In this document: positions 5,015-30,628 of the stretch, one piece after another | Layout: every line of letters starts with the position of its first letter | How positions within the stretch are numbered: the first letter of the stretch is position 1 | Source of the DNA: Prosthecobacter fusiformis | Lineage (GTDB): Bacteria; Verrucomicrobiota; Verrucomicrobiia; Verrucomicrobiales; Verrucomicrobiaceae | Assembly: GCF_004364345.1 (NCBI RefSeq) | Contig: NZ_SOCA01000003.1 | Location: 1 to 64,000, forward strand | DNA length: 64,000 bases | Direction of reading: 5' to 3' | Made by a program: the position numbers and the translations under genes | The notes under the pieces: model-generated | Seen by the model: only the letters and a program-made list of their open reading frames with translations | What the model was told of the DNA's origin: nothing | The model's database searches: none

Positions 5015-6850
5015 ATGAGCGATCGCAAAGCTGCCCTGCAAAAGATCAAAGTCATTCCTGGCATGGGCTGCATGGTGCAGCCAAAAGGTGCCGCATTCCG
5101 TGTCTGGGCACCACATGCAGACAGCGTGTCGGTGGTAGGCACTTTTAACAAATGGGATCCGCAGGCCTGTCCCATGCAGAGGGAGGAAGGTGGCACTTGG
5201 TTTGCCTTGGTGGAAGAGGCGGAGGAAGGCCAAGGCTACCTTTATCACATTCGCAATGGTGAAAAGGAATTCACCCGGCCGGATCCCCGTGCCCGGTGCA
5301 TGGAAAACTCCATTGGCAATTCACTCGTCTGGAAGTCGCGACGCGATGCTGCCGGTGGCGAATTCACTCCGCCCACCATGGATGAAATGATCATCTATGA
5401 AATGCACATCGGTTCCTTCCATGTGCATGAGGGTGCCGCTCATGGCACCTTTTCCACCGCCATCGAAAAGATGGATTATTTAAAAGACCTCGGTATCAAT
5501 GCCATTGAACTCATGCCCGTGGCGGAATTCGCCGGCGACATGTCCTGGGGTTACAATCCTGCCTGTCCTTACGCCATCGAGTCCGCCTATGGTGGGCCAG
5601 AGGGACTGCTGGCTTTTGTTAAAGCCGCGCATGATCACGGCATCGCCGTCATCATGGATGTCGTTTACAATCACTTCGGCCCTTCAGACCTCGGCCTCTG
5701 GCAGTTCGATGGCTGGTCAGAGAATGAAAAAGGCGGCATCTATTTCTACAATGATCAACGCTCCAGCACCCCTTGGGGGGATACCCGTCCCGACTATGGA
5801 CGCGGCGAGGTCCGCTCTTACATCCGCGACAATGCCATCATGTGGTTTGAAGAATACGGCGTGGACGGCTTGCGCTGGGACATGACCGTCTTCATCCGCA
5901 GCTGTCAGGGAAATCCCGGCCATCCTGATGATGATCTCTCCGAAGGCTGGGGCCTCATGCAATGGGTCAATGACGAAATCCACGCCCATTATCCTCAGGC
6001 CATCACCATTGCTGAAGATCTTCGGGACAGTGAATGGATGGTCAAGGATACCGGGGCTGGTGGAGCTGGATTCCGCAGCCAGTGGAATGCTGATTTTGTC
6101 CATCCCGTGCGTGCCGTCATGATCCAGGCCGAGGACCAGCATCGCAATCTCGAGGCCCTTCAATCCGCCCTCACCTGCTGCTTTGATGGCGATGCCTTCA
6201 AACGTGTCATCTATACCGAATCACACGACGAAGTCGCTAACGGCAAAGCCCGTCTTCCGTCTGAAATCGTTCCTTCAGATGCCAGTGCACTGCCTGCCCG
6301 CCAAAGGGCAAATCTCGGTGCTGTCATGGTCTATACAGCTCCTGGCATTCCTATGATTTTTCAAGGCCAGGAATTCCTCACCGATGAATGGTTCCGTGAC
6401 GATGTACCTCTGGATTGGTCACGCACGGAGGAGTTTCAAGGCGTCGTTCAAATCTATCGCGACCTAGCCAAAATGCGCCGGAACTTTGAAGGCTGCACCG
6501 CAGGTCTCATGGGCCAGAACATTCACGTTCATCATGTTGAGCACGGGCGTAAGGTGCTTGGCTACCGTCGCTGGCGTGAAGGTGGCTCTGGGGATGATGT
6601 CATCGTTATACTAAACCTCGGCCATCAGCCTGCGGATGATATTCGCATCGGCGTCCCCTCCTCCGGCCTTTGGCGCATCCGCTTCCATAGTGATGCCCAG
6701 GTCTATGGAGGAGACCTCGCGGGTCATCCCTGCGTGGATGCCATGGCCACCGAAGGCGATTGGGAAGGACACCCCTTCAGCATCACCCTTGCCCTTGGCA
6801 GCTATGCAGCCGCCGTCCTTTCTCAGGACCCGGGCGAAAAGGCAGCCTAA
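5015..6850 (+). CDS. GlgB-like GH13 alpha-glucan branching or related enzyme with CBM48
   Basis: The N-terminal CBM48-like domain (KGAAFRVWAPHADSVSVVGTFNKW) precedes a GH13 barrel. Catalytic candidates are Asp289 in DGLRWD, Glu334 in IAEDL and Asp405 in ESHDEVANGK, numbered from the ATG at 5015. The SHDEVxxGK motif is characteristic of 1,4-alpha-glucan branching enzymes. At about 611 residues it is shorter than many GlgB proteins, mainly at the N terminus. Branching enzymes cut an alpha-1,4 glucan and re-attach it as an alpha-1,6 branch. Trehalohydrolase-type specificity is a less likely alternative. No other glycogen gene is adjacent. A start seven codons upstream (4994) is also possible; neither has a strong ribosome binding site. 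Confidence 0.8.
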   Translation: MSDRKAALQKIKVIPGMGCMVQPKGAAFRVWAPHADSVSVVGTFNKWDPQACPMQREEGGTWFALVEEAEEGQGYLYHIRNGEKEFTRPDPRARCMENSIGNSLVWKSRRDAAGGEFTPPTMDEMIIYEMHIGSFHVHEGAAHGTFSTAIEKMDYLKDLGINAIELMPVAEFAGDMSWGYNPACPYAIESAYGGPEGLLAFVKAAHDHGIAVIMDVVYNHFGPSDLGLWQFDGWSENEKGGIYFYNDQRSSTPWGDTRPDYGRGEVRSYIRDNAIMWFEEYGVDGLRWDMTVFIRSCQGNPGHPDDDLSEGWGLMQWVNDEIHAHYPQAITIAEDLRDSEWMVKDTGAGGAGFRSQWNADFVHPVRAVMIQAEDQHRNLEALQSALTCCFDGDAFKRVIYTESHDEVANGKARLPSEIVPSDASALPARQRANLGAVMVYTAPGIPMIFQGQEFLTDEWFRDDVPLDWSRTEEFQGVVQIYRDLAKMRRNFEGCTAGLMGQNIHVHHVEHGRKVLGYRRWREGGSGDDVIVILNLGHQPADDIRIGVPSSGLWRIRFHSDAQVYGGDLAGHPCVDAMATEGDWEGHPFSITLALGSYAAAVLSQDPGEKAA

Positions 6851-6992
6851 CCAATGATAGACGGAAAAGGGGCGGTAGATCGCAGGTCGCCTGCACGCCT
6901 CCTTTTCTTGCTGATTCGCAAAGCCGCGAAAATTCTCTGCATAAACTCGCTGTTGCGATGGCCTCGTTGCCTTATCGTAACCAACAAAGTTC

Positions 6993-8651
6993 ATGCAGCA
7001 GCGCCGAACCAATCTCTTGCTCATCCTTCTGGTCGTCACGCCGCTGGCGTTGCTCACCTGGTTGGGTACTTACCTGATTCGCGATGCCGCACGCAGCACA
7101 GATTCTGCCATGCAGGCCGTGCTGGCGGAACGCCTCGCCGTTGCAGACCACCAGCTTGCCGATGACCTGCGCCGTTTCACGGACCAGTTAGACCTCCTGG
7201 ATGCCCCCGCTAATTCGGATCCTAAATCCACCGCCATGGCCCTCGGCACACATCCCTGGACCATGGAGACCTGGATCGCCTCACAGAATGGCGTGGCGGA
7301 GATCGTCACCGAAAAAGGTGATCAGTCTCAGGATGTCGGTGCGGATGCCGCCACCCGCGCCCGCATGCTCCAGCACATTCTCAGCCTCCCCCTGCCCCGC
7401 TCCGCAGAGGCGATGGAGCCTTTCGCATTGGTCATCGAAGCCAGCTCCCAGCAGGATCCAGACCGCAGCCGTCAGGCCATCTGGCAGACCTTCGCGCGCA
7501 CGGAGGGTTATCATCAAAAAGGACTCGTCAAGCCCGGCCCCATGCCTGCATTCAGCTCCGGCTGGCACGTCACCGATGGCGATTTCATTTATTGGCGCCA
7601 GCTCTCTCCGGGCACCATCATCTGTGCGCGGCTGGATAGCCGGGCTCTCCGCCATGCCCTTTTCAGCCGGTTGCCACCCCCTGGGTTGCAGGCATACCCC
7701 GGCCGCCTCACCCTCACCACCCGCAGCGGCATCCCCCTCCACACCGCCGGGCGCAGCCTGCCCGGCTCTCTCACACGTCCCGCAGCTGTGAAGCAATGCT
7801 CCGCACCCCTCACCCAGTGGTTCTTGAGCTATTCCCCCGCCGCTATCGAATTCCCCAAACCCTACCTGTTTCCCATTTTGTTAGGCGTCGGCTCCGGCTG
7901 CCTCCTCGTCCTCGCTCTCGCGTGGACCTTTTTTCGCGAAAATGCCCGCGAGCTCCGCCTCGCCCAGCAGCGCGTCAGTTTTGTCAATCAGATCTCCCAT
8001 GAGCTGAAGACCCCCCTCACCAATATCCAGCTCTATACAGAGATGGCCGCTCACCGCATCGAGAGCACCAATGATATCATCTGCCAGCGCCACCTCCGCG
8101 TTGTCGAGACAGAGACCGCCCGCCTCAACCGCCTTATTCAAAACGTCCTCAACTACGCACGCCAGCAGCGGGATAAGCTCAGTGTCCAGCCCCGCCCTAT
8201 CATATTGGATGAAGTCGTCAGCCGGGCTGTGGGAAACTGGCGCACCCTCTTGGAAAACAAAGGCTTCAAAGTTCACCTCTCCCTCAATGGCCCCCCCACC
8301 ATGAAGGCCGATGCCGATGCCATCGAGCAGATCCTCAGCAACCTCCTTTCCAATGTGGACAAATACGCCGCTCATGGGAAATGGGTCTCCATCCACACCG
8401 AAAGCACCGGCAGCAGCGCCCGCATTATTGTCGAGGACCGCGGCCCCGGCATTCCCTCCGGAAAACGCCGCATGGTCTTTGAGCCTTTCGAGCGTCTCCG
8501 CTCAGATTTAAACGAAGGCGTCAGCGGCACCGGCATCGGCCTCACCATCTCCCGGGAGCTGGCAGATCTTCACGGAGGGTCATTGGAAGTTTGCAGCCTA
8601 TACAAAGATGGGGCTAGATTCATCCTCACCCTGCCCGTTCAACCCTTATGA
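6993..8651 (+). CDS. Membrane-bound sensor histidine kinase
   Basis: The 552-residue protein has an N-terminal membrane segment (LLLILLVVTPLALLTWLGTYLI). A periplasmic sensor region of about 260 residues follows, then a second membrane segment at about residues 290-312. The HisKA motif SHELKTPLTN places the phosphoaccepting His at 336. The ATPase domain shows N (NLLSNVDKYA), G1 (EDRGPGIP) and G2 (GTGIGL) boxes. The periplasmic domain is not one I recognise. The stop overlaps the response regulator start (ATGA), so the pair is coupled. Nothing in the sequence identifies the signal. Confidence 0.93.
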   Translation: MQQRRTNLLLILLVVTPLALLTWLGTYLIRDAARSTDSAMQAVLAERLAVADHQLADDLRRFTDQLDLLDAPANSDPKSTAMALGTHPWTMETWIASQNGVAEIVTEKGDQSQDVGADAATRARMLQHILSLPLPRSAEAMEPFALVIEASSQQDPDRSRQAIWQTFARTEGYHQKGLVKPGPMPAFSSGWHVTDGDFIYWRQLSPGTIICARLDSRALRHALFSRLPPPGLQAYPGRLTLTTRSGIPLHTAGRSLPGSLTRPAAVKQCSAPLTQWFLSYSPAAIEFPKPYLFPILLGVGSGCLLVLALAWTFFRENARELRLAQQRVSFVNQISHELKTPLTNIQLYTEMAAHRIESTNDIICQRHLRVVETETARLNRLIQNVLNYARQQRDKLSVQPRPIILDEVVSRAVGNWRTLLENKGFKVHLSLNGPPTMKADADAIEQILSNLLSNVDKYAAHGKWVSIHTESTGSSARIIVEDRGPGIPSGKRRMVFEPFERLRSDLNEGVSGTGIGLTISRELADLHGGSLEVCSLYKDGARFILTLPVQPL

Positions 8652-9331
8652 AGATCCTCATCGCCGAAGACGACGACCACACCCGCGAAGCCCTGCGCGA
8701 GGTCCTCAGCATGGAAGGTTACGAGCTGGTCACCGCCAGCGACGGCCTCCAGGCCATCGATTTCTTCCGCGCCACCCGCCCGGACTTCGTCTGCCTGGAC
8801 GTCATGATGCCTGGCCAAAACGGCTACGAGGTGTGCAAACAGATCCGCAAGATGGACGAAAACGTCCCCATCCTCTTCCTCACCGCCAAGGCCGAGGAAA
8901 TAGATACCGTCCTCGGCCTGGAGCTGGGTGCCGATGATTACATGACCAAGCCCTTCGGTGTAAAAGAGATCATCGCCCGCATCCGCGCCATCCTCCGCCG
9001 CACCGCCGCCCGTGCCGGCGCTGCTCCTCGTGAGGAAGACTTCACGATGGACGACCTCCGCATCGTCTCCGCCGAGCTTCGTGCCTACCGTGACGGCACC
9101 GAGATCCAGCTCAGCCCTCGCGATGTAAAAGTGCTGAATCTCCTCTACCAGCGCCGTGGCAAGGTCGTGGACCGCAACACCATGGCGGATGAAGTCTGGG
9201 GTGTGGATTACTTCCCCGAAAGCCGTGCGTTGGATCAGCACATCTCCCAGCTTCGCAAGCGCGTGGAAAAAGACCCCGCCAATCCCCGCATCATCCGCAC
9301 CGTCCACGGTGCCGGCTATCGCTTCGAATAG
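8648..9331 (+). CDS. OmpR/PhoB-family response regulator
   Basis: The 227-residue protein has a receiver domain with the acidic cluster EDDD at residues 7-10, phosphoacceptor Asp51 in CLDVMMPG, and the Thr/Lys motif LTAK...MTKPFG. A C-terminal winged-helix DNA-binding domain follows (LSPRDVKVLNLLYQRRGKVVDRN...ALDQHISQLRKRVEKDP...RTVHGAGYRFE). It is translated from an ATGA overlap with the sensor kinase and is its cognate regulator. The tandem hairpin array that starts five bases after the stop may terminate its mRNA. Target genes cannot be inferred. Confidence 0.95.
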   Translation: MKILIAEDDDHTREALREVLSMEGYELVTASDGLQAIDFFRATRPDFVCLDVMMPGQNGYEVCKQIRKMDENVPILFLTAKAEEIDTVLGLELGADDYMTKPFGVKEIIARIRAILRRTAARAGAAPREEDFTMDDLRIVSAELRAYRDGTEIQLSPRDVKVLNLLYQRRGKVVDRNTMADEVWGVDYFPESRALDQHISQLRKRVEKDPANPRIIRTVHGAGYRFE

Positions 9332-9335
9332 CAAA

Positions 9336-9658
9336 GTAGCCCGCTCAGTCCTTGAGCGGAAAGCATCCTCGCAACTCCCTCCCCATCCCGAGCTTTGCAT
9401 AGGTTGGCAGATAGCGCCGAAGCCAAAAAGCCTCGAATTTTTTCGTAGCGTCAAGCTCAGCAAAAGTAGCCCGCTCAGTCCCTGAGCGGAAAGCATCCTC
9501 GCACCCCCCTCCCCATCCCGAGCTTCGCATAACTTGGCAGATATCGCCGCAACCAAAAAGCCTCGAATTTTTGCGTCGTCCTAGCCTGGCAAAAAAGTAG
9601 CCCGCTCAGTCCCCTGAGCGGAAAGCAACGTCGTCCCCCCTCCCCATCCCGAGCAACG
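9336..9658. repeat. Tandem array of three ~130-bp units with hairpin cores
   Basis: Three units begin at 9336, 9466 and 9597, with periods of 130 and 131 bases; the last is truncated near 9658. Each opens with GTAGCCCGCTCAG, followed by a short C/T loop and the complementary CTGAGCGG. Stem and loop vary slightly between copies while pairing is kept. Each then carries a CCCCATCCCGAGC block and a lower-GC tail. It fills most of the 462-base gap between the response regulator and blaI-like genes. No coding region is supported; the remainder (9659-9754) shows nothing distinctive. Confidence 0.85.
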
Positions 9659-9754
9659 TCATCACCCCTTAACGCACCTTGGGTCTAAACTCGTCCCTGC
9701 ACCCCCCGCCGCAAATTTTCACCGCCACCGTAAAAAATCTTGCCCTCCATCGGA

Positions 9755-20621: not shown

Positions 20622-21860
20622 ATGGCCCTGCGTATAGATCTTGCCATCACCCATGGTGAACTGGACAACACCGAGCGTGGTCGCATTCGCGGTCGCCTCT
20701 GGCTGCTTGGCCGTGAACAGCCCGTGGAGTTGGACCTTGATGGCGATGCCTGGCGGGATGTGGCCGGCACCCGGCTCACTTTTAAAAACCCCACTCCCGT
20801 TCCTCAATCCACCTCGGCCCGGCTTAACACCGTCCAAATTGGCATGGCCGGGGATATCACCGCCTCTCGAAAGGTGAAGGTCTTCACCGTGGATGAGGAA
20901 GAATGGCAGGAAGCCTACCGTCAGGACCGCATTGATGAAGTGCCCACAGAATGGCGCAACAGCCTTTATCTGGAATGGTTCACCCCGGAGCAGGGCCGCT
21001 GTGTCGTGGAAAGCGCCGACTTTGAAATCACCATCTCCGAGCATGTCTGGGAGATGGATGAGGATGAGGAGGGTGCTCAAAAACTAGCTAACATGCAGGC
21101 CATGCGCGACTTCCTGGCCGGCATCATCCAGCGGCCTGAACCTCGTGAGGATACCGACTCCGAAGACGATACCAGCCTGGAGCTTTCAGAGGAAGAATGG
21201 GAAGAGCAACTCAAAGCCTCCGACCGCCTCACCGATGCCAGTATGGAAGCCTACGAGAAGTATGGCGAGGACAACGACTCTGAGGAAAAGACTGCATTCG
21301 TCATGGGCTGGGACCATCTGCTAGAAGACATGGCCGATGCCCAGGAAGGCGTGGAACCTTCTGAGAACGACAGTGAGGATAAGAAACGTCGGCGTGAGTG
21401 GAATGAACTCATGGACCAGGCTGCTGCCGAAGCTGAAGAGGCAGAATCCTGGCAGGAAGATGACGAAGAGGATGAATCCCACCCCCTCTATGAACAGGCC
21501 CGTGAGTATGTCGTCCAGGTCAGACGTGAGATGCGCCAGACCGGCCTCAACGAAGATCATGGCGAAGATCCTGATCATCCTCTGGACCGTTTTATGACCA
21601 ACATCATGCAGATCAGCGGCAAGCTGGCCGGTGCCCTGCATTCGCGTCGTGATCTGGAGGACAGCAATGATCGTGGGTATGTACTTGCCATCACCAAGCG
21701 CTGCCTGAACTGGGCCAACGAAGCCCTCGCCGCCCTCCAAGATATGCAGGCCACCCCTGCTTATGCCGTCCATCGTCCTTTGTTCGAGACCTGGAAAACC
21801 GGGGTGCTCAACCTGCGTGAAGGCATCAATCAATTGCGGGATGAACTTAAGGAGGAGTAA
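20622..21860 (+). CDS. Highly acidic protein of unknown family
   Basis: The 412-residue protein is not a family I recognise. Residues 1-150 look beta-rich (LRIDLAITHGELDNTERGRIRGRLWLLG...VKVFTVDEEEW). Residues 165-300 are strongly acidic, with runs such as EDTDSEDDTSLELSEEEWEE and WQEDDEEDE. The C-terminal 110 residues are helical (ISGKLAGALHSRR...YVLAITKRCLNWANEALAAL). There is no signal peptide or membrane segment, so it is likely cytosolic. Its 3' end overlaps by 14 bases, tail to tail, with the third AAA+ ATPase gene. Proximity makes it a candidate substrate adaptor or partner of the three ATPases, but no co-transcription is possible. Confidence 0.75.
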   Translation: MALRIDLAITHGELDNTERGRIRGRLWLLGREQPVELDLDGDAWRDVAGTRLTFKNPTPVPQSTSARLNTVQIGMAGDITASRKVKVFTVDEEEWQEAYRQDRIDEVPTEWRNSLYLEWFTPEQGRCVVESADFEITISEHVWEMDEDEEGAQKLANMQAMRDFLAGIIQRPEPREDTDSEDDTSLELSEEEWEEQLKASDRLTDASMEAYEKYGEDNDSEEKTAFVMGWDHLLEDMADAQEGVEPSENDSEDKKRRREWNELMDQAAAEAEEAESWQEDDEEDESHPLYEQAREYVVQVRREMRQTGLNEDHGEDPDHPLDRFMTNIMQISGKLAGALHSRRDLEDSNDRGYVLAITKRCLNWANEALAALQDMQATPAYAVHRPLFETWKTGVLNLREGINQLRDELKEE

Positions 21861-24141
21861 TCTCCGTCGTGGCCCTGTTTGCGTCCCAGGTGACACGCAG
21901 CAGAAGGTCCTTGCTGGCGGGATGGGTGACGATCCATCGTGCCAATGGCATAACAATGAGTTCTTCAATCCGGCGCTGAAGTGGACGTGCACCATAGACA
22001 GGGTCAAAGCCGCGTTCGCAGACTGTTTGCAGCAGGGCATCGCTGATCTCCAGCCGCAGGCCGCGCTGGGCCAGACCCTCCCGCTGGATGAGGGCGGCGA
22101 TCTCCCTCTGGGCAATGGATTCAACGGCACTGCGGCCCAGGGGCTCAAAGGTGACGACCTGATCCAGGCGGTTGAAAAATTCAGGCCGGAAGAATTGGGT
22201 GATGGCGCTTGTGTCTGAACGTGCAGCCTCTGTGGCAGATGCCGGACCAAAACCCAGGGCGCTGCCTTTCCGCGCGCCCAGGTTGGAGGTCATGATGATG
22301 ACTGTACTGCGGAACCAGGTGGTGCGCCCCAGGGCATCGGTGAGGCGGCCTTCATCAAAGACGTTCATCAGCGTATCGAAGACCTCAGGCGCGGCCTTTT
22401 CCACCTCGTCCAGGAGAAGGACGGTGAAGGGGTTTTGACGCAAGCGTTTGACCAGGTCGGAGGGTTCTCCAAAGGCATCGCCAAGCAGGCGGCGGGCTGC
22501 ATCGTGGCCAGCGTATTCGCTCATGTCCAGGCGCACAAGCCGGTCATTGGGCTGGCGGTTGGGGAAGAGATAGTCCCCCAGGAACTTGGCCAATTGTGTC
22601 TTGCCTGTGCCAGTAGGGCCGGTGAAAAGCAGGACAGCCAGAGGGCGGCGTGGATCATTGAGCCCAGCTTTGAATTTTAACAATGTGCGGCAGACTGCAT
22701 CCACCGCCTGCGGCTGGGCGATGAGACGTTCACTGAACCAGGAACGCAGTGCTTCTGGATCTAGCACGGCAGTTTCATCCATGAGCTGATCAGGCAGGCC
22801 AGTGCCTTCAGCAAAGAGGCGGCGCAGATCCGCCAGAGCCACCTGGCGGCCGCCTGCTTCACGTGCACGCGCAGCGGCTTCGTTCATCAGGCCCAGCGGA
22901 GTTCCGGGAAAGCCTGCATAGGGTTGGAAACGCTTGCACAAACGGCCCGCCTCGCGCGCGGCCTCCATTGAAAAATCCATGGCCCCGCTGCCATTGAGAG
23001 ACTGAGCGGCCAGATTCAATACGCGGTCTTCCTGGGCCGGTGCCAGCGGATGCATGCGCTGGATGGAGAAGGCATCCAGGAAGCCTGGCAGGCTGCGTTC
23101 ACAGGCATCCACTTCCGCAGGTGTGGCTTCGACCACAAGCCGCAGCTCGCCTGACTGAAGATAGGGAATTAAAAAAGCGGCGAGACTGCTCTCCGGATTG
23201 CTGCCTCCCAGCCGCAGCAGCTCCTGTAGGCTTTCGATGCCCAGGATGGCCTCCGCGTTTCTTGCTTCGGCGATGACTTCCTCCAGCCGTTCCTGCCACT
23301 CGCCTAACCAGCGCATGCCAGCGATGAGGCGCGAGCCGCTGGTGATCCAGAAGCGCTGCGCTTTGCGCCCACTTTCCCCAGACAGCTTTTCCACCCGGCG
23401 GGCGGCTTCAATCAAAACGGCCGATTTTCCACAGCCGGATTCACCCACCAGCAGCACGCTGCCCCGGCTTTGACGCAGGCGGTTTTCCAGGTCGGTCACC
23501 TCCGCATCACGCTCCCAGGTGCGGGATGTTTTGCGCAGGGCAGGGGATCCCGCGTGCTCGGCGACTTTGGGCAGCACCTCCAGTTTAAAGTCATCCTCCT
23601 TCTCCTTCTGACGGCGCGGGGTGAAGGAGATCGCGTCCAGCTTCCATTCCACAGGTGAAAGCAGCCGCATGAGGCTGGCAGGGGTCAGCCCTTTCAATTC
23701 CTGGCGCGCATAATGAAGCGCCATTTCTTCCACCTTGTCCTGGCCGCTGAGCTCAAATTCTACATTGAGTGTCGGCAGCATCGCACAGACCAGCCCGCTC
23801 TCACGCTTGCCTACTACGCAGGGCAGCTTCAGCGTCACCGCTTCAGCACAGGGCACACTGCGGGTGCGGTTATGACCGTCCTTGACCTTCACTGCATACT
23901 CGGGCACAGCCTGGACCTTCACCACGCGCATTTCCGGGTCCTGGAAATCAGGTGCGACCATCCACAAATCACCGCTGCCATCCACGCATTGCAGGTAGTC
24001 CTTTAACTCCCGCAGCACGGCTGTGGGGGTGGCTCCGCTGGCGGAACCATAACTGGCCATGTCATCCAGCAGTCGGCCTGCCCAGCCACCCTGAGGGGAG
24101 CTGCGCCAGAGCACGACATTAAAGCGGAGGGTGCGGGACAT
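21847..24141 (-). CDS. ClpA/ClpB-like double AAA+ ATPase, third of the cassette
   Basis: The 764-residue protein has an N-terminal region of about 190 residues unlike the Clp N domain. NBD1 has a Walker A (GESGCGKS, about 229-236), but its Walker B reads ILGIESLQE, lacking the Asp-Glu pair. NBD2 is intact: GPTGTGKTQLAKFL, VLLLDEVEKAAPEVFD, sensor TSNLGARKG, FFRPEFFNRLDQVV and the C-terminal GARPLQRRIEELI. No ClpB coiled-coil middle domain and no ClpP-binding tripeptide are evident. It follows the second ATPase gene after two bases. I infer an ATP-driven protein remodeller within a hetero-assembly. Confidence 0.88.
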   Translation of the reverse strand: MSRTLRFNVVLWRSSPQGGWAGRLLDDMASYGSASGATPTAVLRELKDYLQCVDGSGDLWMVAPDFQDPEMRVVKVQAVPEYAVKVKDGHNRTRSVPCAEAVTLKLPCVVGKRESGLVCAMLPTLNVEFELSGQDKVEEMALHYARQELKGLTPASLMRLLSPVEWKLDAISFTPRRQKEKEDDFKLEVLPKVAEHAGSPALRKTSRTWERDAEVTDLENRLRQSRGSVLLVGESGCGKSAVLIEAARRVEKLSGESGRKAQRFWITSGSRLIAGMRWLGEWQERLEEVIAEARNAEAILGIESLQELLRLGGSNPESSLAAFLIPYLQSGELRLVVEATPAEVDACERSLPGFLDAFSIQRMHPLAPAQEDRVLNLAAQSLNGSGAMDFSMEAAREAGRLCKRFQPYAGFPGTPLGLMNEAAARAREAGGRQVALADLRRLFAEGTGLPDQLMDETAVLDPEALRSWFSERLIAQPQAVDAVCRTLLKFKAGLNDPRRPLAVLLFTGPTGTGKTQLAKFLGDYLFPNRQPNDRLVRLDMSEYAGHDAARRLLGDAFGEPSDLVKRLRQNPFTVLLLDEVEKAAPEVFDTLMNVFDEGRLTDALGRTTWFRSTVIIMTSNLGARKGSALGFGPASATEAARSDTSAITQFFRPEFFNRLDQVVTFEPLGRSAVESIAQREIAALIQREGLAQRGLRLEISDALLQTVCERGFDPVYGARPLQRRIEELIVMPLARWIVTHPASKDLLLRVTWDANRATTEITPP

Positions 24142-24143
24142 GA

Positions 24144-27100
24144 TCAGAAAGAAAGCGGTTCAGTACAGGCCAGCGCCAATGCCATTTCGAGGGGCAGGCT
24201 GTCATCGGTTTCCATGCACAGGCCGGTGCGTAGATCCAGCAGGCGACGACCCTGTCGGATGTGGCTGATTTCCCCTGTGCCTGAAGGCAGTTCCTGGCAG
24301 GAGTAACTGGTGAGCACCAGGCTTTCCTCGAAGCTGGCATGCACTCCGGTGAATGCGGCAGCAAGCTTTTGCAGACCGTGGCCTTCCAGGATGAGATGCG
24401 TGCCATCTGGGTTCAGGGCATCCACAAAAGCATCCTTGCGCCAGCCGGGAAGGGAAAGCTTGGCAGATGAAACCAGCGTCCATGCTTGCGGTGACGGACC
24501 TTCATCCGCAGTCAGCATCAGCAGGCGGTTTACCCGCCACAGCAGACGCAGAGCCATGGCGGTGGATCTGGCCATGGGCTGAGCCAGATCCAGTCTGGCT
24601 GCCACCTGTCTGGCGGACATGTCCGAGCCTAACAAATCATGCAGCAAGTTTTCAATGCCTGCCTCAGGCATCACGCAAAGGTAATCGTCCAGCGTTTCGA
24701 TGAAGGGTTTGGTGCCTCGGGAGGCGGAGGCTTTTTTGCGCGCTTTTTCCATGGCCTCCAAGGATGCTTCGGTCTGGTGCAGTTGCTGCCTCAGGGCGTT
24801 GCTTTCATCCCGCAGGCGGTAATACCAGGCACGCAGGGCGGAGATGCCGTCTTCACTGTCATTGAGCTTCCAGTCATCCAGGCGTGCGTTCACTTGGTCC
24901 AGGCCCTGATGCGCTTCATCCACCCTGTCCAAGAGCTCATCATGGGAGAGCCGGACCGGCAGCCGCAGGGTCTGAGCCACCTGACGGTGGACTTCGCAGG
25001 TGAAGTGAAGGGCACCGTTTTGCAGCGTCGTTTGCACCCGCACGGCACGGGAGGTTTTCCAGGTCATCAGGTGAGCGGCCAGCGGCTCCACCAGATGTGT
25101 CTCGATGGCACGCCGCAATGCACGGGCACCATATTCAGGATCGTATCCGCGCTGTGCCAGGAAACCGGTGCTGTCTGCATCCAGCAGCACCTCCACACGC
25201 CGATCGCGCAGGCCCTGCCGGGCGAGTGCACGGGAGGAAAGCGTACCCGCCAGATGCTGGATGTCCTGCCTGCGCAGTTCATGGAAGGGGACGATGCGGT
25301 CCAGGCGGTTGAAGAATTCCGGCCTGAAGAATTTCTCCGCCGCTTCCCGATAAACTTCCTTTTCTTCCGCCGCCCGGTCATCAAAGCCGAGTCGGTGCCG
25401 CGTCTTCTGGGCTCCGATGTTGGAGGTGAGGATGATGAGGCAGTTGCAGAAGTCCACCGTCTGGCCCTGGGCATCGGTGAGGCGTCCTTCCCCCAATACC
25501 TGGAGCAGGAGGTCGAAGACATCCGGGTGGGCTTTCTCCACTTCATCAAACAGCAGCAGGCTAAAGGGCTGGCGTCGCACCCGCGAGGTCAGCAGACCAC
25601 TGTGCCCCGGACTGCCGATGAGGCGCAGGGCCGCATCCCCGCCGCTGTATTCATTGAGGTCAAAGCGCAGCATCTTTTCCTCACTGCCAAAGACAAATTC
25701 CGCCAGGGCCTTGGCACATTCCGTTTTTCCAACGCCGGTCGGGCCGAGGAAGAGCAGCGACCCGAGCGGCCGCCGCGCATCATTCACCTCCGCACGGGCC
25801 ATGAGCACTGTTTCCGTCATGGCGCTCACAGCCGCCGTCTGGCCCATGATGCGGCTGGAGAAAAATTCCTGCAAGCCGCTGGGCGTCATCGACTGGCTGT
25901 TATCAATCATGGTTAGGCGGATGCCATGACGTGAGGCAAACCAGTCCAGCACCTGCCCTGCGCCGACGGTCTCCAGTTTCAGGGTTCCTTCATCCGGGAA
26001 CTGATCGGCAAAGGAGCCCGCCAGCGCGGTTAGCATCTCCACGCCCTTTCCAGGAAAAGCCCGGGCACGACCAAAGCGAGTCTGCAGGCGCATGATCAAC
26101 GGCAGGATCTCCGGGGCCAGTTTCAGGCGGGACCGAGTCTCCAGCATCTGCAGGCTGCGGATAAGGATGCGCAGGGTGCTGTCATCATCCATTTCACGGA
26201 CATGGATGACCTGAAACATGCTGGCAAAGGCACGGTCCGTTTCACGCAGTCGGCCCCAGGCTTCTGGGGTGGACTCCGCCAGGATGGCCACCGGTTCATG
26301 CTCTTGGCGTGCCTTCAGCACCTGGCCGAGTGACAGATCACTGCCCGCGGTTTTACCGGCTTCAAAGAGGCCTGGCAGATCATCCAGCACCAGGATATGG
26401 CGCTCCTGCCGCATTTCTGCCAGCATGGCTGTCCAGCGCTGCTCCCATTGGCCGATGTAAGACATGCCGCTGATCACCCGCTGGGGTGAGACATGCCAGA
26501 AGAGGCCGCGTTTAGTGCTCTCCGCCTTTTCCATCCGGCGGCGTACGCATTCATGGATGAGGGCGGTTTTGCCAGCCTTGGAGCGGCCTACCAGCAGCAC
26601 CATCGGAGTGGTGGCTTTGCGCTGGGTGAACCAGGACAGCAGCTCGCCCACCTCATTCTCACGCAGCAGGGCGTGGTGGAGATCATTGGGGTACAGTGCG
26701 TCCAGGCAGCGGCCTACTTTGCGCAGTTCTTTCCCACCATCCATGGGGGTGTCATCGCCCAGCGACAGCTTGCGGGACGGGGCTGCGGGCAGCGCCTGCC
26801 TGCCGGGAAGAACCACGCTGACGTGCGTCAGGTGCGGCTGGCTGCCAGAGAGCCATTCTTTAGGATCAAAGTCCGCTTCGTTTTCTTTTTCGAGCTTTCT
26901 CAGATGCTCCGTGAGCACACGCTTCAGCTCATCTTCCAGGTGCGTGCCGGGAGTGCATTCAAAGCTGAGTCCGCCACCCCTTGGCAGTACCGCCTGGCGG
27001 CATCCGGCGCCTTCAAAAACAGCCACATAGAAATTGCCCTCAAAGGACTGACGGCGCAGTTCAATGCGCAGGCGGATATTCTGGCCGGTGGCGGGTGGTG

Positions 27101-27323
27101 AAAAAGTCCAGGGCAGGAGCTCCCGATGGTCTGGCGATGTTTTCTCTTCGGCCAAGTTTTTGGTGATGGCACTGGCCAGGCGTTGGAGTGCGCGGTCCTC
27201 CCGGACATCCGTTTCATCACGAGTCCAGGACGGCATGAACAAGGGCCGGACGCGGAAGCGCGCCTTCTCGCCCTCCTCACGGTGGTGGTCGGCATAAACC
27301 GGGATGGAAAGGCGCAGGTTCAT
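24144..27323 (-). CDS. ClpA/ClpB-like double AAA+ ATPase with C-terminal extension, second of the cassette
   Basis: The 1059-residue protein has an N-terminal region of about 220 residues with a beta-rich stretch (RLRIELRRQSFEGNFYVAVF). NBD1 has Walker A GRSKAGKT (about 244-251) and Walker B HILVLDDLPG, where Asp replaces the usual catalytic Glu. NBD2 is canonical: GPTGVGKTECAKAL, LLLFDEVEKAHPDVFD, TSNIGAQ, FFRPEFFNRLDRIV and YGARALRRAIETHL. After residue 800 a C-terminal extension of about 250 residues contains a predicted coiled coil (ALRQQLHQTEASLEAMEKAR) and no domain I recognise. Its start overlaps the stop of the first ATPase gene (ATGA). Hetero-oligomer assembly with the neighbours is inferred. 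Confidence 0.88.
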   Translation of the reverse strand: MNLRLSIPVYADHHREEGEKARFRVRPLFMPSWTRDETDVREDRALQRLASAITKNLAEEKTSPDHRELLPWTFSPPATGQNIRLRIELRRQSFEGNFYVAVFEGAGCRQAVLPRGGGLSFECTPGTHLEDELKRVLTEHLRKLEKENEADFDPKEWLSGSQPHLTHVSVVLPGRQALPAAPSRKLSLGDDTPMDGGKELRKVGRCLDALYPNDLHHALLRENEVGELLSWFTQRKATTPMVLLVGRSKAGKTALIHECVRRRMEKAESTKRGLFWHVSPQRVISGMSYIGQWEQRWTAMLAEMRQERHILVLDDLPGLFEAGKTAGSDLSLGQVLKARQEHEPVAILAESTPEAWGRLRETDRAFASMFQVIHVREMDDDSTLRILIRSLQMLETRSRLKLAPEILPLIMRLQTRFGRARAFPGKGVEMLTALAGSFADQFPDEGTLKLETVGAGQVLDWFASRHGIRLTMIDNSQSMTPSGLQEFFSSRIMGQTAAVSAMTETVLMARAEVNDARRPLGSLLFLGPTGVGKTECAKALAEFVFGSEEKMLRFDLNEYSGGDAALRLIGSPGHSGLLTSRVRRQPFSLLLFDEVEKAHPDVFDLLLQVLGEGRLTDAQGQTVDFCNCLIILTSNIGAQKTRHRLGFDDRAAEEKEVYREAAEKFFRPEFFNRLDRIVPFHELRRQDIQHLAGTLSSRALARQGLRDRRVEVLLDADSTGFLAQRGYDPEYGARALRRAIETHLVEPLAAHLMTWKTSRAVRVQTTLQNGALHFTCEVHRQVAQTLRLPVRLSHDELLDRVDEAHQGLDQVNARLDDWKLNDSEDGISALRAWYYRLRDESNALRQQLHQTEASLEAMEKARKKASASRGTKPFIETLDDYLCVMPEAGIENLLHDLLGSDMSARQVAARLDLAQPMARSTAMALRLLWRVNRLLMLTADEGPSPQAWTLVSSAKLSLPGWRKDAFVDALNPDGTHLILEGHGLQKLAAAFTGVHASFEESLVLTSYSCQELPSGTGEISHIRQGRRLLDLRTGLCMETDDSLPLEMALALACTEPLSF

Positions 27324-30300
27324 GCCAGAGCCTCCTTCAATACGGCTTCACGGAGGCCGCGCAGAAGCCAGCTTTTTTGGAAGCTGCCGGATGTCCGGAT
27401 TCCGCCGGGACCGTCACGCACCAGCATGCGCACGGGGTCATACTGGCGGCGGATCACGCCTTTTTCCAGATTTGGCTGACCAATGATTTCTGTCGTGGCC
27501 AGCATCAGTTCGGTGAGGTCCTGCGCATTGTCTTCGGGCACACTGACTTCGATGCGGCAGGTCCAGTCTTTCTCCGCCTGGATGGCTTTTCGTTCGCTGG
27601 GACGTGCCGGCTTTTCAGGTTCATCCTCCTTGTCCCGGCTGGCTTTCATGAGGTGCAAGCCGCCTTCGTTTTTCAGTAGCAGCGTGGCTTTTTCACCACT
27701 GATCCACAGGGCCATGGCGGCGACTTTTCCCGGCTCTTCCTGCCAGAGCTGGAGTTGATCGGCCTCTTTTTCCGGCACATAGGCAAAGGCATATTGGCCA
27801 TCCTGGCTCAGCAGTTTGGCCGGGGTCTGTTTGTGAAACACACCTGCCTCCACCTTGCCGCCCAGGTCCAGTGCTAGGTCGCGATACATCGCCGCAAAGG
27901 CCATCATGCTTTTGCCCGGCTGGCCGTGGATGAGAAACAGCAACCGCTTCGGTGGTGGCTGCCATAGTGCATAGGCCTCCAGCACGGCTTCCTCCAGATC
28001 GTTTTTGGAAAGCGGGTCACGTCGGTTCAGCACAGCCAAGTCGCTGTGATGCAGGGCCAGGATGAGGCCCTCCTCATGCGTGAGCTGCTTCTGCGCATCC
28101 TTGTCGATGCGGGCCAGGCATTGCTTCAGCGTTTCCGTCTCAGGATCATGTGCCGTCCAGGCCACCGCGTTTTTGGCTTTGCCCTGGCTGTTGCGCTGGC
28201 GCTGCTGTGCCATCCTGAGTCGGCCTTGCAGACCGTTCACCATCGTGCTGCTGCGCAGGCTTTCGTAGGCCTGTCGCAGGTGGGCTGTGCTGCGCAGCCG
28301 GTCACGCAGATTTTGCAGGGCCTGTTTCTCCTCTGTGTTGGTGCCAGGCTTGACCACTTGCAGGAGCACATGGCCCAGGCTGTCCAGATCCGCCTTCAAC
28401 AGGCTTTTTTCTGCCACGCCTTCAGCAATCAGTGCGGAGATAGGTGCCAGCAAATGCTCAGCCACGCGGCGCTTCAAAGGCCGGGCTCCATAACGCGGAT
28501 CATATCCTTCCCGCGCCAGATTTTGAACCACGGCCTCGCTCACTTCCAGCCGCAGTCCTGCTTTGACAAAGCCGGGTCGCAAAGCAGCCGTGGCGATCTC
28601 ACGACGGGTCAGGGAGACCACAACTTCGCTGCTGAGCGGCTGATAAGGGACGATGCGGTCAATGCGGTTGAACATCTCCGGTCGCAGGGCTTTCTGCACC
28701 GCTGTGGTGAAATGATCCGTCGCATCCTGGTGCGCGGCACCGCCACTGCTGAAACCCATGCGACCTTTGGAAAAATCCTGCGCTCCGAGGTTGGAGGTCA
28801 TGATGACCACGCAGTTGCTGAAATCCGCCGTGCGGCCTGCGCCGTCGGTGAGCCGGGCCTCGCCTAACAATTGAAGCAATAAATCAAAGACCGCCGGGTC
28901 TGCCTTTTCAAACTCGTCCAGCAGCAACACGCTGAAGGGTTGCTCACGCACGGCAGCAGTCAGCAGCCCTTCACGTCCATCATGGCTGCCGCTCACCAGC
29001 CTCTGCGCGCTCCAGGGCTGACCGTACTCGCTCATGTCCAGGCGGATCATGCGCTCTGCGCTTTGGAAAAGGAATTCCGCCAGGGCCTTGGCCATCTCAG
29101 TTTTGCCCGTGCCTGTGGGGCCGATGAACAGCAGCGATGCCAGCGGCCTGCCTGGACGGGCGAGCCCTGCCTTGATCTGGGCGATGACGGACACCACCAC
29201 ATCCACGGCTTCGCCCTGGCCTTCGACCCGGTTTTGAAACCAGGTGCGGGTGATGTCGAGATCCAGCGGTGTCTCTGGATTCAGCAAGTGCTCCGGCATG
29301 CCAGTCTCGCGTGAGAAGGCGGCATAGACATCTGGCTCTTCGACGAGGCGCTCTGCCGGGATGTTTTCATGCAGGCGGGTCATGAAACGCAGCGGTGCAC
29401 CTGGAAAGGCTGAATAGCCCAGATAGCGCCGGTGCAGAGATCTCACCCGCTCTAGCGCGGGCCGGGAAAAGCGTGCGCGGTCACCGGCTAGTTTGGTGGA
29501 GGCGGTGAGCATCAATGCCGCCAGCTTTTCCGCCTGCGGTTCCTCCAGTTTCAAGATGCGGAAGGCATCGGCAAGACGCGGGTCCTGTTTCTCGATCACG
29601 ACCATTTGCTCATGCGTACATTCGACGATGACCTGGAGCTCCCGCCGCACCAGATACGGGCGCAAAAAGCTGGCGATGCTTTCGCTCCCGGTGCTGCTCT
29701 GGCCCACGTTCATGAGTTCGAAGAGGTTGCCCAGATAAAGGACCAGCTTTTGTTTTCGTGCCGTTTCCACCAGCTCCCGGCAGCGCTGCTGCCACATGCC
29801 AAACCCGCTGGCACCAGCGATCAACCGGGTGCCGCTGCTGCGATAAAATGGCTGCTGGCCCAGGCCAAAGTCACTGCGCCGTCGGGCCATTTCCTGGGTT
29901 AACGCGGTCTTACCCACACCTGCTGCACCCAGCAGCAGCACGCTCGGCTGATCCGGCAGAGTGAGCAGGCGGGACAGTTGCTTGAGTTCCGTTTCCAACT
30001 CATAGGCACGAGGCAGAAAGGCACCCTCCATGCGGGTGCAAAGCTGGGCGAGGATGTCCGGTCCCTGATCTTCGTTGAGGAATTTTTTCCAGCGGTCCAC
30101 GGCGGTTTCCAGCCGTGGGCTCCAGGTCACCGGCTGCACGCTCACTTCACCCCGGGCCAGCATGGCTAGGCGCAGCAGGGAGGTGTTCCATTCGCCCCGC
30201 TTCAGGGCGCTGAGCGCATGCTCATTCAGCATCTTCGGCAGCCGCTCGCGGTCCGGGGCGATGACGGCGATGCCCAGTGCAGGCACAGTGGCCAGAACGT

Positions 30301-30628
30301 GTGCTCCTTGCTCCCAGACGACTGCTTCCAGAGTCATGGTCACTGGCTCGCGCCAGGCTTCCGTCCTCTTCGCGGGCTCCACCTTCAATTCCGCCCGCAT
30401 GATTTCAGGTGTGCCCGAAACTGAGCGGCGCGTGATTTCATCCAGCGGTTCATTTTTCAGCAGGTCCTCCGCCAGATCCATCAATGCCGCCTTCGACGGG
30501 CGCTCCTTATTGGCCAGCGTCGCCAGCTCCGGAAACAGCAGCAGCTCCACCATCAACTGCGCCTCGCCCTCCGCACTGGTTTCCAGCGTGCGGGTGATGA
30601 GGTGAAGGGTGGTGTCAATGTCTGACAT
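27320..30628 (-). CDS. ClpA/ClpB-like double AAA+ ATPase with long C-terminal extension, first of the cassette
   Basis: The 1102-residue protein has a novel N-terminal region of about 205 residues. NBD1 has Walker A GAAGVGKT (about 232-239) but the Walker B position reads LVLYLGNLFEL, with no acidic pair. NBD2 is complete: GPTGTGKTEMAKAL (about 501-508), VLLLDEFEKADPAVFD, TSNLGAQD, ALRPEMFNRIDRIV and YGARPLKRRVAEHL. Residues 790-1102 form an unrecognised extension, with a VAWTAHDPETETLKQCL helical part and a beta-rich end. It lies 32 bases behind tyrS on the same strand and leads the ATPase cassette, so all four genes may share a transcript. Confidence 0.88.
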   Translation of the reverse strand: MSDIDTTLHLITRTLETSAEGEAQLMVELLLFPELATLANKERPSKAALMDLAEDLLKNEPLDEITRRSVSGTPEIMRAELKVEPAKRTEAWREPVTMTLEAVVWEQGAHVLATVPALGIAVIAPDRERLPKMLNEHALSALKRGEWNTSLLRLAMLARGEVSVQPVTWSPRLETAVDRWKKFLNEDQGPDILAQLCTRMEGAFLPRAYELETELKQLSRLLTLPDQPSVLLLGAAGVGKTALTQEMARRRSDFGLGQQPFYRSSGTRLIAGASGFGMWQQRCRELVETARKQKLVLYLGNLFELMNVGQSSTGSESIASFLRPYLVRRELQVIVECTHEQMVVIEKQDPRLADAFRILKLEEPQAEKLAALMLTASTKLAGDRARFSRPALERVRSLHRRYLGYSAFPGAPLRFMTRLHENIPAERLVEEPDVYAAFSRETGMPEHLLNPETPLDLDITRTWFQNRVEGQGEAVDVVVSVIAQIKAGLARPGRPLASLLFIGPTGTGKTEMAKALAEFLFQSAERMIRLDMSEYGQPWSAQRLVSGSHDGREGLLTAAVREQPFSVLLLDEFEKADPAVFDLLLQLLGEARLTDGAGRTADFSNCVVIMTSNLGAQDFSKGRMGFSSGGAAHQDATDHFTTAVQKALRPEMFNRIDRIVPYQPLSSEVVVSLTRREIATAALRPGFVKAGLRLEVSEAVVQNLAREGYDPRYGARPLKRRVAEHLLAPISALIAEGVAEKSLLKADLDSLGHVLLQVVKPGTNTEEKQALQNLRDRLRSTAHLRQAYESLRSSTMVNGLQGRLRMAQQRQRNSQGKAKNAVAWTAHDPETETLKQCLARIDKDAQKQLTHEEGLILALHHSDLAVLNRRDPLSKNDLEEAVLEAYALWQPPPKRLLFLIHGQPGKSMMAFAAMYRDLALDLGGKVEAGVFHKQTPAKLLSQDGQYAFAYVPEKEADQLQLWQEEPGKVAAMALWISGEKATLLLKNEGGLHLMKASRDKEDEPEKPARPSERKAIQAEKDWTCRIEVSVPEDNAQDLTELMLATTEIIGQPNLEKGVIRRQYDPVRMLVRDGPGGIRTSGSFQKSWLLRGLREAVLKEALA

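Follow-up and report, generated by a model that had tools for sequence, protein, structure and literature searches.

The bacterium Prosthecobacter fusiformis encodes, in direct succession, three different ATPases that each resemble ClpA or ClpB, and the question that this locus raises is what three such proteins might do together. We analysed a stretch of 64,000 nucleotides (the window: contig NZ_SOCA01000003.1 of assembly GCF_004364345.1, positions 1 to 64,000, forward strand), in which the three ATPases, here called A1, A2 and A3, are followed by a convergent gene for an acidic protein, D. A previous inspection of the letters, the sequence-only reading, had grouped all four genes in one cassette and had suggested that the three ATPases form a hetero-oligomeric remodelling machine. 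The answer that we favour, and that we hold to be plausible but somewhat short of probable, is a three-subunit hetero-oligomeric Hsp100/Clp-type remodelling machine that is aimed at the translation apparatus and docks there through dead release-factor modules.

The gene layout was as that reading had described it, with three ATPase genes on the minus strand and the acidic gene facing them at exactly the proposed open reading frame (ORF) coordinates. These coordinates also bore out the couplings between the genes, since A1 and A2 overlap by 4 bases (ATGA), A2 and A3 are separated by 2 bases, and A3 and D overlap convergently by 14 bases. Each of A1, A2 and A3 matched ClpA/ClpB models of Pfam and NCBIfam across both AAA modules (NCBIfam ClpB E-values of 5.9e-91, 1.3e-102 and 7.5e-88), so that the two ATPase modules per protein, here D1 and D2, are as claimed; likewise, no Clp_N family appeared among the best 25 Pfam matches of each ATPase. 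The C-terminal extensions claimed for two of the ATPases are real and belong to A1 (about 360 amino acids) and A2 (about 300 amino acids). The kinship of the A1 extension with release factors, like a ClpP-loop-like tripeptide in the motors, had been overlooked.

We found that the three ATPases recur as a unit. In 27 loci, including the window, there are three consecutive such genes, two long and one short; 17 loci of these sets were mostly picked where three matches share one contig, and one solitary protein (L288) was excluded from the sets. Genome samples gave counts that depend less on such a choice: full A1 relatives were found in 9 of 68 genomes of the same family, and all nine had three neighbouring cassette matches. 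Matches at E up to 1e-130 were present in 55 of 195 genomes from the phylum of a Myxococcus genome (L032), with three in 51 of the 55, and in 10 of 149 genomes from the phylum of an Eremiobacterota genome (L031), with three in 6 of the 10, when at most 3 and 5 candidates, respectively, were scored per genome. An even sample of the window's own phylum gave cassette matches in just 2 of 387 genomes. With one and the same order of the three genes in three phyla, the arrangement is far from chance. The flanks of the cassette differ between genomes, and in a neighbourhood comparison no non-cassette neighbour recurred beyond a few related loci, while each ATPase was supported by all 27 others. The order includes a further family in which the cassette is contiguous at three loci, while four genomes have A1 and A2 adjacent with A3 elsewhere; the non-adjacent A3 was identified because the A3 profile gave it its highest score. 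Homologues are therefore not always encoded singly: the trio recurs, although solitary homologues exist.

The labels A1 to A3 in the 27 loci were assigned by gene position. In six loci (L275, L276, L279, L280, L289 and L291) BLAST against the window paired the middle gene best with A3, and the last gene best with A1 or A3; gene lengths and the tree agree with the position labels. Two loci have a divided gene. The A3 of the Eremiobacterota metagenome-assembled genome L031 (10740-12910) is split across two frames near position 11157, either because the frameshift is real or because the assembly is wrong there, and the longer of the two frames alone entered the analysis; the A2 of a Myxococcota locus (L278, 7662-11153) appears as two frames of 923 and 237 amino acids.

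In a maximum-likelihood tree, the labels A1, A2, A3 and Clp outgroup required 3 changes, which is the minimum possible, compared to a mean of 47.6 when labels were shuffled. A branch with a support of 100 sets the nine Clp outgroup rows apart; A3 forms one side of a branch (support 76), and A1 and A2 need two changes each, in a tree that carries long-branch warnings. Since A1, A2 and A3 fall into separate groups, the triplication probably predates the spread of the cassette over these phyla. Thus, we conclude from these sequence comparisons that the three ATPases are one family, apart from the nine sampled Clp proteins, and that they are inherited as a trio. Recurrence as a trio, old paralogy and the retention of A3 even when it is not adjacent therefore fit a hetero-oligomer, and to this extent the proposed grouping of the non-identical ATPases stood.

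The acidic protein did not stand with it. We found D homologues in 131 of the 189 genomes of the taxonomic order (28 of 43 genera), compared to only 24 of 189 with a match to this ATPase family, and none of the other 26 cassette loci had a D match (E 1e-30) in its stretch. In two close relatives, L114 and L115, D retains its far-side neighbours and there is no cassette ATPase match within the 14 kilobases examined; in L115, moreover, 1564 base pairs of other sequence lie between D and a gene labelled TyrS by eye, at the place where the window has the cassette. We therefore rejected D as a member of the cassette, because it is widespread in the order without the cassette and was found beside it in the window only. 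A four-gene system of three ATPases and D has the convergent 14-base overlap in the window to recommend it, and given the conservation of D elsewhere we consider it to have practically no chance of being correct. D had no match in Pfam, NCBIfam or PADLOC. Its family often has a second, shorter copy of about 340 amino acids, which matches residues 1-170.

We considered that the cassette might be a module of defence or conflict, one that detects arrested translation, for instance in phage infection, and acts on ribosomes. Its patchy occurrence in the family, its varied flanks and the other sequence found between D and TyrS in a relative would all suit such a module. However, its presence in 55 of 195 sampled genomes of the Myxococcus phylum points rather to a stable trait, the top PADLOC hits (PDC-M37B and DolB) lie on the AAA part of D2 only, with weaker ones also on AAA parts, no effector domain appeared among the best 25 Pfam matches per ATPase, and searches of phage and plasmid proteins returned no record covering 80% of A1. 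We accordingly give a defence role little credence. In a scan of viral contigs, matches in the 80 loci retained extended no further than the AAA part and none of these loci matched the A1-tail profile; on these searches, a mobile or viral origin of the cassette was rejected. Separately, a Levybacteria contig (L036, 8243-13020) has two consecutive Clp-like ATPase matches, with no A1-tail profile match there.

What, then, do the extensions add to the motors? The resemblance of the A1 extension to peptide chain release factors was first noticed by eye and then tested by profile comparison, with a release-factor profile made from 24 of 25 PCRF loci from relatives, namely those with the GGQ-x-x-N frame. 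Comparison with hhalign gave a probability of 90.0% with 11 A1 sequences, 97.5% with 27 (E 7.2e-12, E-values here being for one pair) and 98.9% once two solitary relatives had joined the A1-extension profile. In contrast, column permutations gave at most 1.8% (150 permutations) and 0.5% (99 permutations), and reversed profiles gave 0.2-0.3%. The unguided comparison of the A1 profile with PDB sequences yielded 30 hits up to E 10, 24 of them RF1/RF2 (best E 6.6e-7), the first other hit standing at 0.24. Moreover, a release-factor hidden Markov model run against 441 ATPase-like frames of the loci analysed picked out solitary relatives (L288, L292 and a frame of L239 that is part of the L294 gene). 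All its other matches were A1 proteins of Myxococcota, of which three scored E 3.7e-7 to 9.7e-7 and five scored 0.0017 to 0.0029, and it matched none of the ClpA, ClpB or ClpC frames.

The features by which release factors act are missing from this extension. The GGQ motif is present in none of the 27 A1 tails, and the distance between the G-x-H motif and the next R is 41-72 in the 27 A1 proteins, compared to 125 in every one of the 24 release factors, where the scripts used for counting set their end points up to two residues apart. The codon-reading tripeptide SPF was found in none of the 27 A1 rows, and PPT occurred within 22 residues in 4 of 27, not at the release-factor position; in this check the L281 row picked up another site. 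Thus, we conclude on the strength of the profile comparisons that the A1 extension is homologous to domains 1-2 of class-I peptide chain release factors, without the catalytic part.

Solitary relatives of the ATPases carry the same kind of tail in a more recognizable form. PCRF scored above the Pfam gathering score in four of them (L288, L292, L294 and L331). The L288 tail matched PCRF at 2.8e-10 (40.8 bits, with a cut-off of 24), and 23 of its 24 PDB hits were release factors, including the C-terminal segment. The L292 tail matched PCRF at 1.3e-9, and its residues 49-392 align to residues 11-357 of RF2 structure 1gqe (E 4.5e-12), which we take to be the Escherichia coli protein. GGQ is absent from all four and from a fifth relative, L329. 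The spacing from G-x-H to R is 123 in L292, 102 in L331, 63 in L294, 60 in L288 and 42 in L329, and because of these spacings the catalytic region, as judged from sequence, is kept without GGQ in some relatives (L292, L331) and lost in others (L288, L294, L329). The tree placed L288 on a long branch beside the A1/A3 part and not outside the trio, and hence does not bear out an evolutionary order from a solitary protein to the trio.

A search of the phylum with the solitary proteins found matches in 22 of 387 genomes. Two of these have the cassette, and the other 20 have best frames (742-902 amino acids) that are too short for a release-factor tail. Two-AAA proteins of this length, in scattered genomes of the phylum (L297-L309, L338 and L339), match the solitary-protein profile, at E 1e-108 or better for the phylum-search set. 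No function was suggested by the genes annotated beside three of the solitary relatives (DUF1501, PSD1, a sigma-54 response regulator, ketopantoate hydroxymethyltransferase, polysaccharide deacetylase, an S46 peptidase and EcsC), and an open frame of 2149 amino acids lies downstream of the solitary ATPase in L288 (13244-19693).

We compared the A2 tails to a profile of A1 plus solitary tails and obtained probabilities of 95.0% with 5 sequences of the Eremiobacterota phylum, 95.8% with 6 Myxococcota sequences and 71.4% with all 27, the last against 60 permutations that gave at most 0.1%. A comparison of A1 with A2 tails, 11 sequences each, had given 0.2%; the relation emerged only after further sequences and the solitary relatives had been added, and some subsets still did not show it. 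The sole GGQ among the 27 A2 tails is at residue 16, outside the release-factor-like part. We take the A2 tail, less surely than that of A1, to be a release-factor module.

The motors differ between their two modules. In D2, the Walker A lysine, the Walker B Asp-Glu pair and the TSN sensor 1 are intact in 27 of 27 proteins of each subunit. In D1, the Walker A lysine is likewise kept in 27 of 27 of each, and the catalytic Walker B glutamate is present in 0 of 27 in each of A1, A2 and A3, being replaced by N, H, S, R or G in A1, by D in A2 and by S, R or N in A3. A1 itself has intact D2 Walker A and B motifs, TSN sensor 1 and Arg finger, and a D1 Walker B without DE. The D1 pore loop (G-x-W) has an aromatic residue or His in 80 of 81 proteins, and its G and W in all 81. 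Since the D2 motifs are intact and the D1 catalytic glutamate is lost, D2 looks, from its motifs, like the working ring and D1 like a non-hydrolysing, possibly gripping ring. The lysines of the two Walker A motifs are 255-281 residues apart in the 81 cassette proteins compared to 396-474 in 37 ClpB-like controls with an M domain. Because this spacing is too short for it, the M domain (the ClpB middle domain) is absent, in agreement with the sequence-only reading.

The claim that the proteins have no evident ClpP loop did not survive. At the ClpP-loop position, between sensor 1 and the RPE[FL] segment, we found a tripeptide of the form [LIVMFPAT]-G-[FLI] in 27 of 27 A1, 27 of 27 A2 and 24 of 26 A3 proteins (78 of the 80 scored, the A3 of L284 being left out of the count); the first residue is Thr in 6 A2 proteins. 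Contact of the trio with ClpP is therefore a possible prediction from the motif. The trio might mainly serve as a protease cap that depends on ClpP, in the manner of another ClpA/ClpC, with its HicB-like and release-factor-like domains choosing which proteins are degraded, for example translation factors or toxins. The controls are in keeping with this, because the tripeptide was found in 16 of 18 ClpA/C-like proteins and in 1 of 37 ClpB-like proteins. However, the GYVG pore loop of D2 is missing from all 81 cassette proteins, compared to its presence in 53 of 55 Clp controls (16 of 18 that are ClpA/C-like), and the D1 catalytic glutamate is lost, in both respects unlike the ClpA/C-like controls. 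We consider the protease cap rather improbable.

The N-terminal domains of A1, A2 and A3 (about 190 residues) can be aligned with each other. An AlphaFold model of the A2 domain from eight sequences reached a predicted local distance difference test score (pLDDT) of 76, and VIA, whose result is confined to the families in its table, ranked the HicB antitoxin 6g1c first (Z 7.9, root-mean-square deviation 2.8 over 83 residues), followed by 6g1n (Z 7.6), 3kwr (Z 6.9, deviation 5.3) and then a match at Z 4.3. The HicB idea had been written down before the model existed. The model is thus suggestive of a HicB-like fold (beta-beta-beta-alpha) for this domain.

Taken together, these parts would make the following machine. 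A1, A2 and A3 would share one ring, in which the D1 ring would bind ATP and contact the client and the D2 ring would do the work. The release-factor-like tails would dock the ring at the factor-binding site or A site of the ribosome, with no reading of stop codons and no release of peptide, and the HicB-like N-domains would bind an RNA or protein client. From a stalled or idle ribosome, the motor would then pull the client off or out, and it might pass that client on to ClpP.

Several observations weigh against this machine. The composition of the ring, the docking, the client and the outcome are all steps that we infer, and for ribosome binding this counts directly. A3 has no tail. The A2 tails of the window's own family (7 sequences) and of other Myxococcota (7 sequences) reached only 4.5% and 0.5% against the A1-plus-solitary profile, and the A2 tail compared directly with release factors gave no significant match and, in the PDB profile search, no release-factor hit. 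Single extensions from 11 loci (22 sequences) had no Pfam PCRF hit at E up to 10, and hence the extensions must be very diverged. The AlphaFold model of the A1 tail, from three sequences, was poor (pLDDT 42), so that no fold search was made with it and its fold is predicted from sequence only. For the N-domain, Foldseek found no clear match to the A2 model, and 21 domains scanned singly against Pfam gave nothing below E 0.04, with neither HicB nor Clp_N; the HicB likeness is no more than suggestive because of this lack of a Pfam match and because a Z just under 8 can reflect a common arrangement. Few neighbours of the cassettes and solitary genes were annotated, and no translation gene was among those annotated. 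Finally, a tail placed at the D2 side might get in the way of ClpP docking.

These weaknesses leave room for tails that no longer bind ribosomes and act instead as scaffolds, setting the order of subunits in a hetero-hexamer that works elsewhere, for example as a protein remodeller of another pathway. Release-factor domains 1, 2 and 4 hold the ribosome contacts, and the retention of all three in solitary relatives, and of domains 1-2 in A1, argues against such a change of role. On the other hand, the tails are strongly diverged and have neither a codon-reading motif nor GGQ, the A2 tail is hardly recognizable in the window's own family, and the available part of a review of release-factor evolution describes MRPS35 as a release-factor domain turned structural, though still in a ribosomal protein (PMC6514570). 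We regard scaffolding as unlikely, yet as an alternative to be taken seriously beside a ribosome-docking machine.

Table 1. Features of the cassette (window coordinates) and of its solitary relatives (coordinates of their own loci)
Feature	Coordinates	Strand	Description	Basis
A1	27320..30628	-	1102-amino-acid double-AAA+ Clp-type ATPase: N-domain, D1, D2, release-factor-like C-terminal extension	ORF list, profile matches
A1 C-terminal extension	27323..28429	-	homologue of class-I release factor domains 1-2, without GGQ, spacing too short for catalytic domain	
A1 N-terminal domain	30071..30628	-	alignable with A2 and A3 N-domains; HicB-like in A2 model (suggestive)	
A2	24144..27323	-	1059-amino-acid double-AAA+ Clp-type ATPase with C-terminal extension	
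A2 C-terminal extension	24147..25067	-	coiled coil and possible release-factor-like fold, related to A1 extension	
A2 N-terminal domain (modelled part)	26757..27323	-	AlphaFold pLDDT 76; HicB 6g1c Z 7.9	
A3	21847..24141	-	764-amino-acid double-AAA+ Clp-type ATPase, no C-terminal extension	
A3 N-terminal domain	23569..24141	-	alignable with A1 and A2 N-domains	
D, acidic protein	20622..21860	+	412 amino acids, convergent with A3	
L288	6755-10264		solitary Clp ATPase, 1169 amino acids: N-terminal region, D1, D2, release-factor tail	
L292	4676-8242		solitary Clp ATPase, 1188 amino acids, HEAT repeats at N-terminus, release-factor tail	
L294	about 6082-9711		solitary Clp ATPase, hydrophobic start, release-factor tail; same order as window	
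L331	5243-8128		solitary Clp ATPase, short N-terminus, release-factor tail; same order as window	
L329	6090-9440		1116-amino-acid solitary protein, tail release-factor-like by eye, only 12-13 bits to release-factor profile	
L330	326-3676		1116-amino-acid solitary protein, tail release-factor-like by eye, only 12-13 bits to release-factor profile	

Among the matches listed from the open full-text literature, a coverage that leaves out subscription journals and preprints, we saw no described fusion of a Clp protein with a release factor and no such trio; the parts are known, the combination was not seen there, and the statement of the sequence-only reading that it knew of no described system with this composition agrees with that result. 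Bacterial ribosomes are rescued or recycled by tmRNA-SmpB, ArfA/ArfB, RqcH, GTPases, RNA-modifying factors and ABC-F proteins, and we know of no bacterial rescue factor that is an Hsp100 motor with a release-factor module. Docking of the trio on ribosomes, if real, would add a mechanically powered way of clearing them and would make the trio a new kind of system. A Clp ring of three different subunits would also be useful for understanding why AAA+ rings diversify, as in the Rpt ring of the proteasome. In addition, the evolution of the fusion can be tested by comparing the trio with two sets of relatives, those in which a longer catalytic region persists without GGQ (L292, L331) and those that lack this region (L288, L294, L329). 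The main text of the release-factor review mentions neither Clp nor HicB, and those of its AAA+ passages that were available concern CDC48 (PMC6514570).

The closest relatives in architecture are ClpA, ClpC and ClpB, with which the trio shares two AAA+ modules in the same order, an intact D2 motor and the ClpB_D2-small domain, as well as the x-G-[FLI] tripeptide as in the ClpA/ClpC-like controls. In contrast to these single proteins, the trio consists of three co-inherited paralogues, has no Clp_N that we could see, no M domain, no GYVG and no D1 catalytic glutamate, and adds a HicB-like N-domain and a release-factor-like tail. The HicB antitoxin N-terminal domain (6g1c, 6g1n) was the top structural match of the modelled N-domain; the difference is that the domain of the trio is fused to AAA+ motors and lacks a Pfam HicB match. 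With RF1/RF2, the trio has in common the PCRF-type domains 1-2 and, in solitary relatives, the C-terminal domain. It differs in that the tail is fused to Clp motors, GGQ is absent, the A1 spacing is well short of that in release factors, and the codon-reading PxT/SPF motifs are not conserved.

Two further systems show how such parts can work. Balon, a ribosome hibernation factor, is an aeRF1 relative without GGQ that occupies the ribosomal A site (PMC10901736); going by the available part of that paper, a release-factor relative can therefore bind the A site without catalysis. Balon resembles the trio in being a release-factor relative that lacks GGQ, although it derives from archaeo-eukaryotic aeRF1 and not from bacterial RF1/RF2, and no ATPase motor is described for it in that part. 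Vms1, in turn, is a release-factor-like protein that works with the AAA+ chaperone CDC48, likely at ribosomes, according to the same part of the review cited above (PMC6514570). There the two are separate eukaryotic proteins and the fold is of the aeRF1 type, whereas the trio has a bacterial-type module fused to the motor. It is thus possible, though we hold to this full picture more loosely than to the remodelling machine as such, that the cassette encodes a bacterial ribosome-targeting Hsp100 machine with three different motor subunits. Its dead release-factor modules would guide a Clp motor to the A site, where it would clear stalled ribosomes or pull them apart. Such a machine, assembled by fusion and spread over at least three phyla, would give bacteria a counterpart, in its logic, of the ribosome quality control that is linked to CDC48/Vms1.

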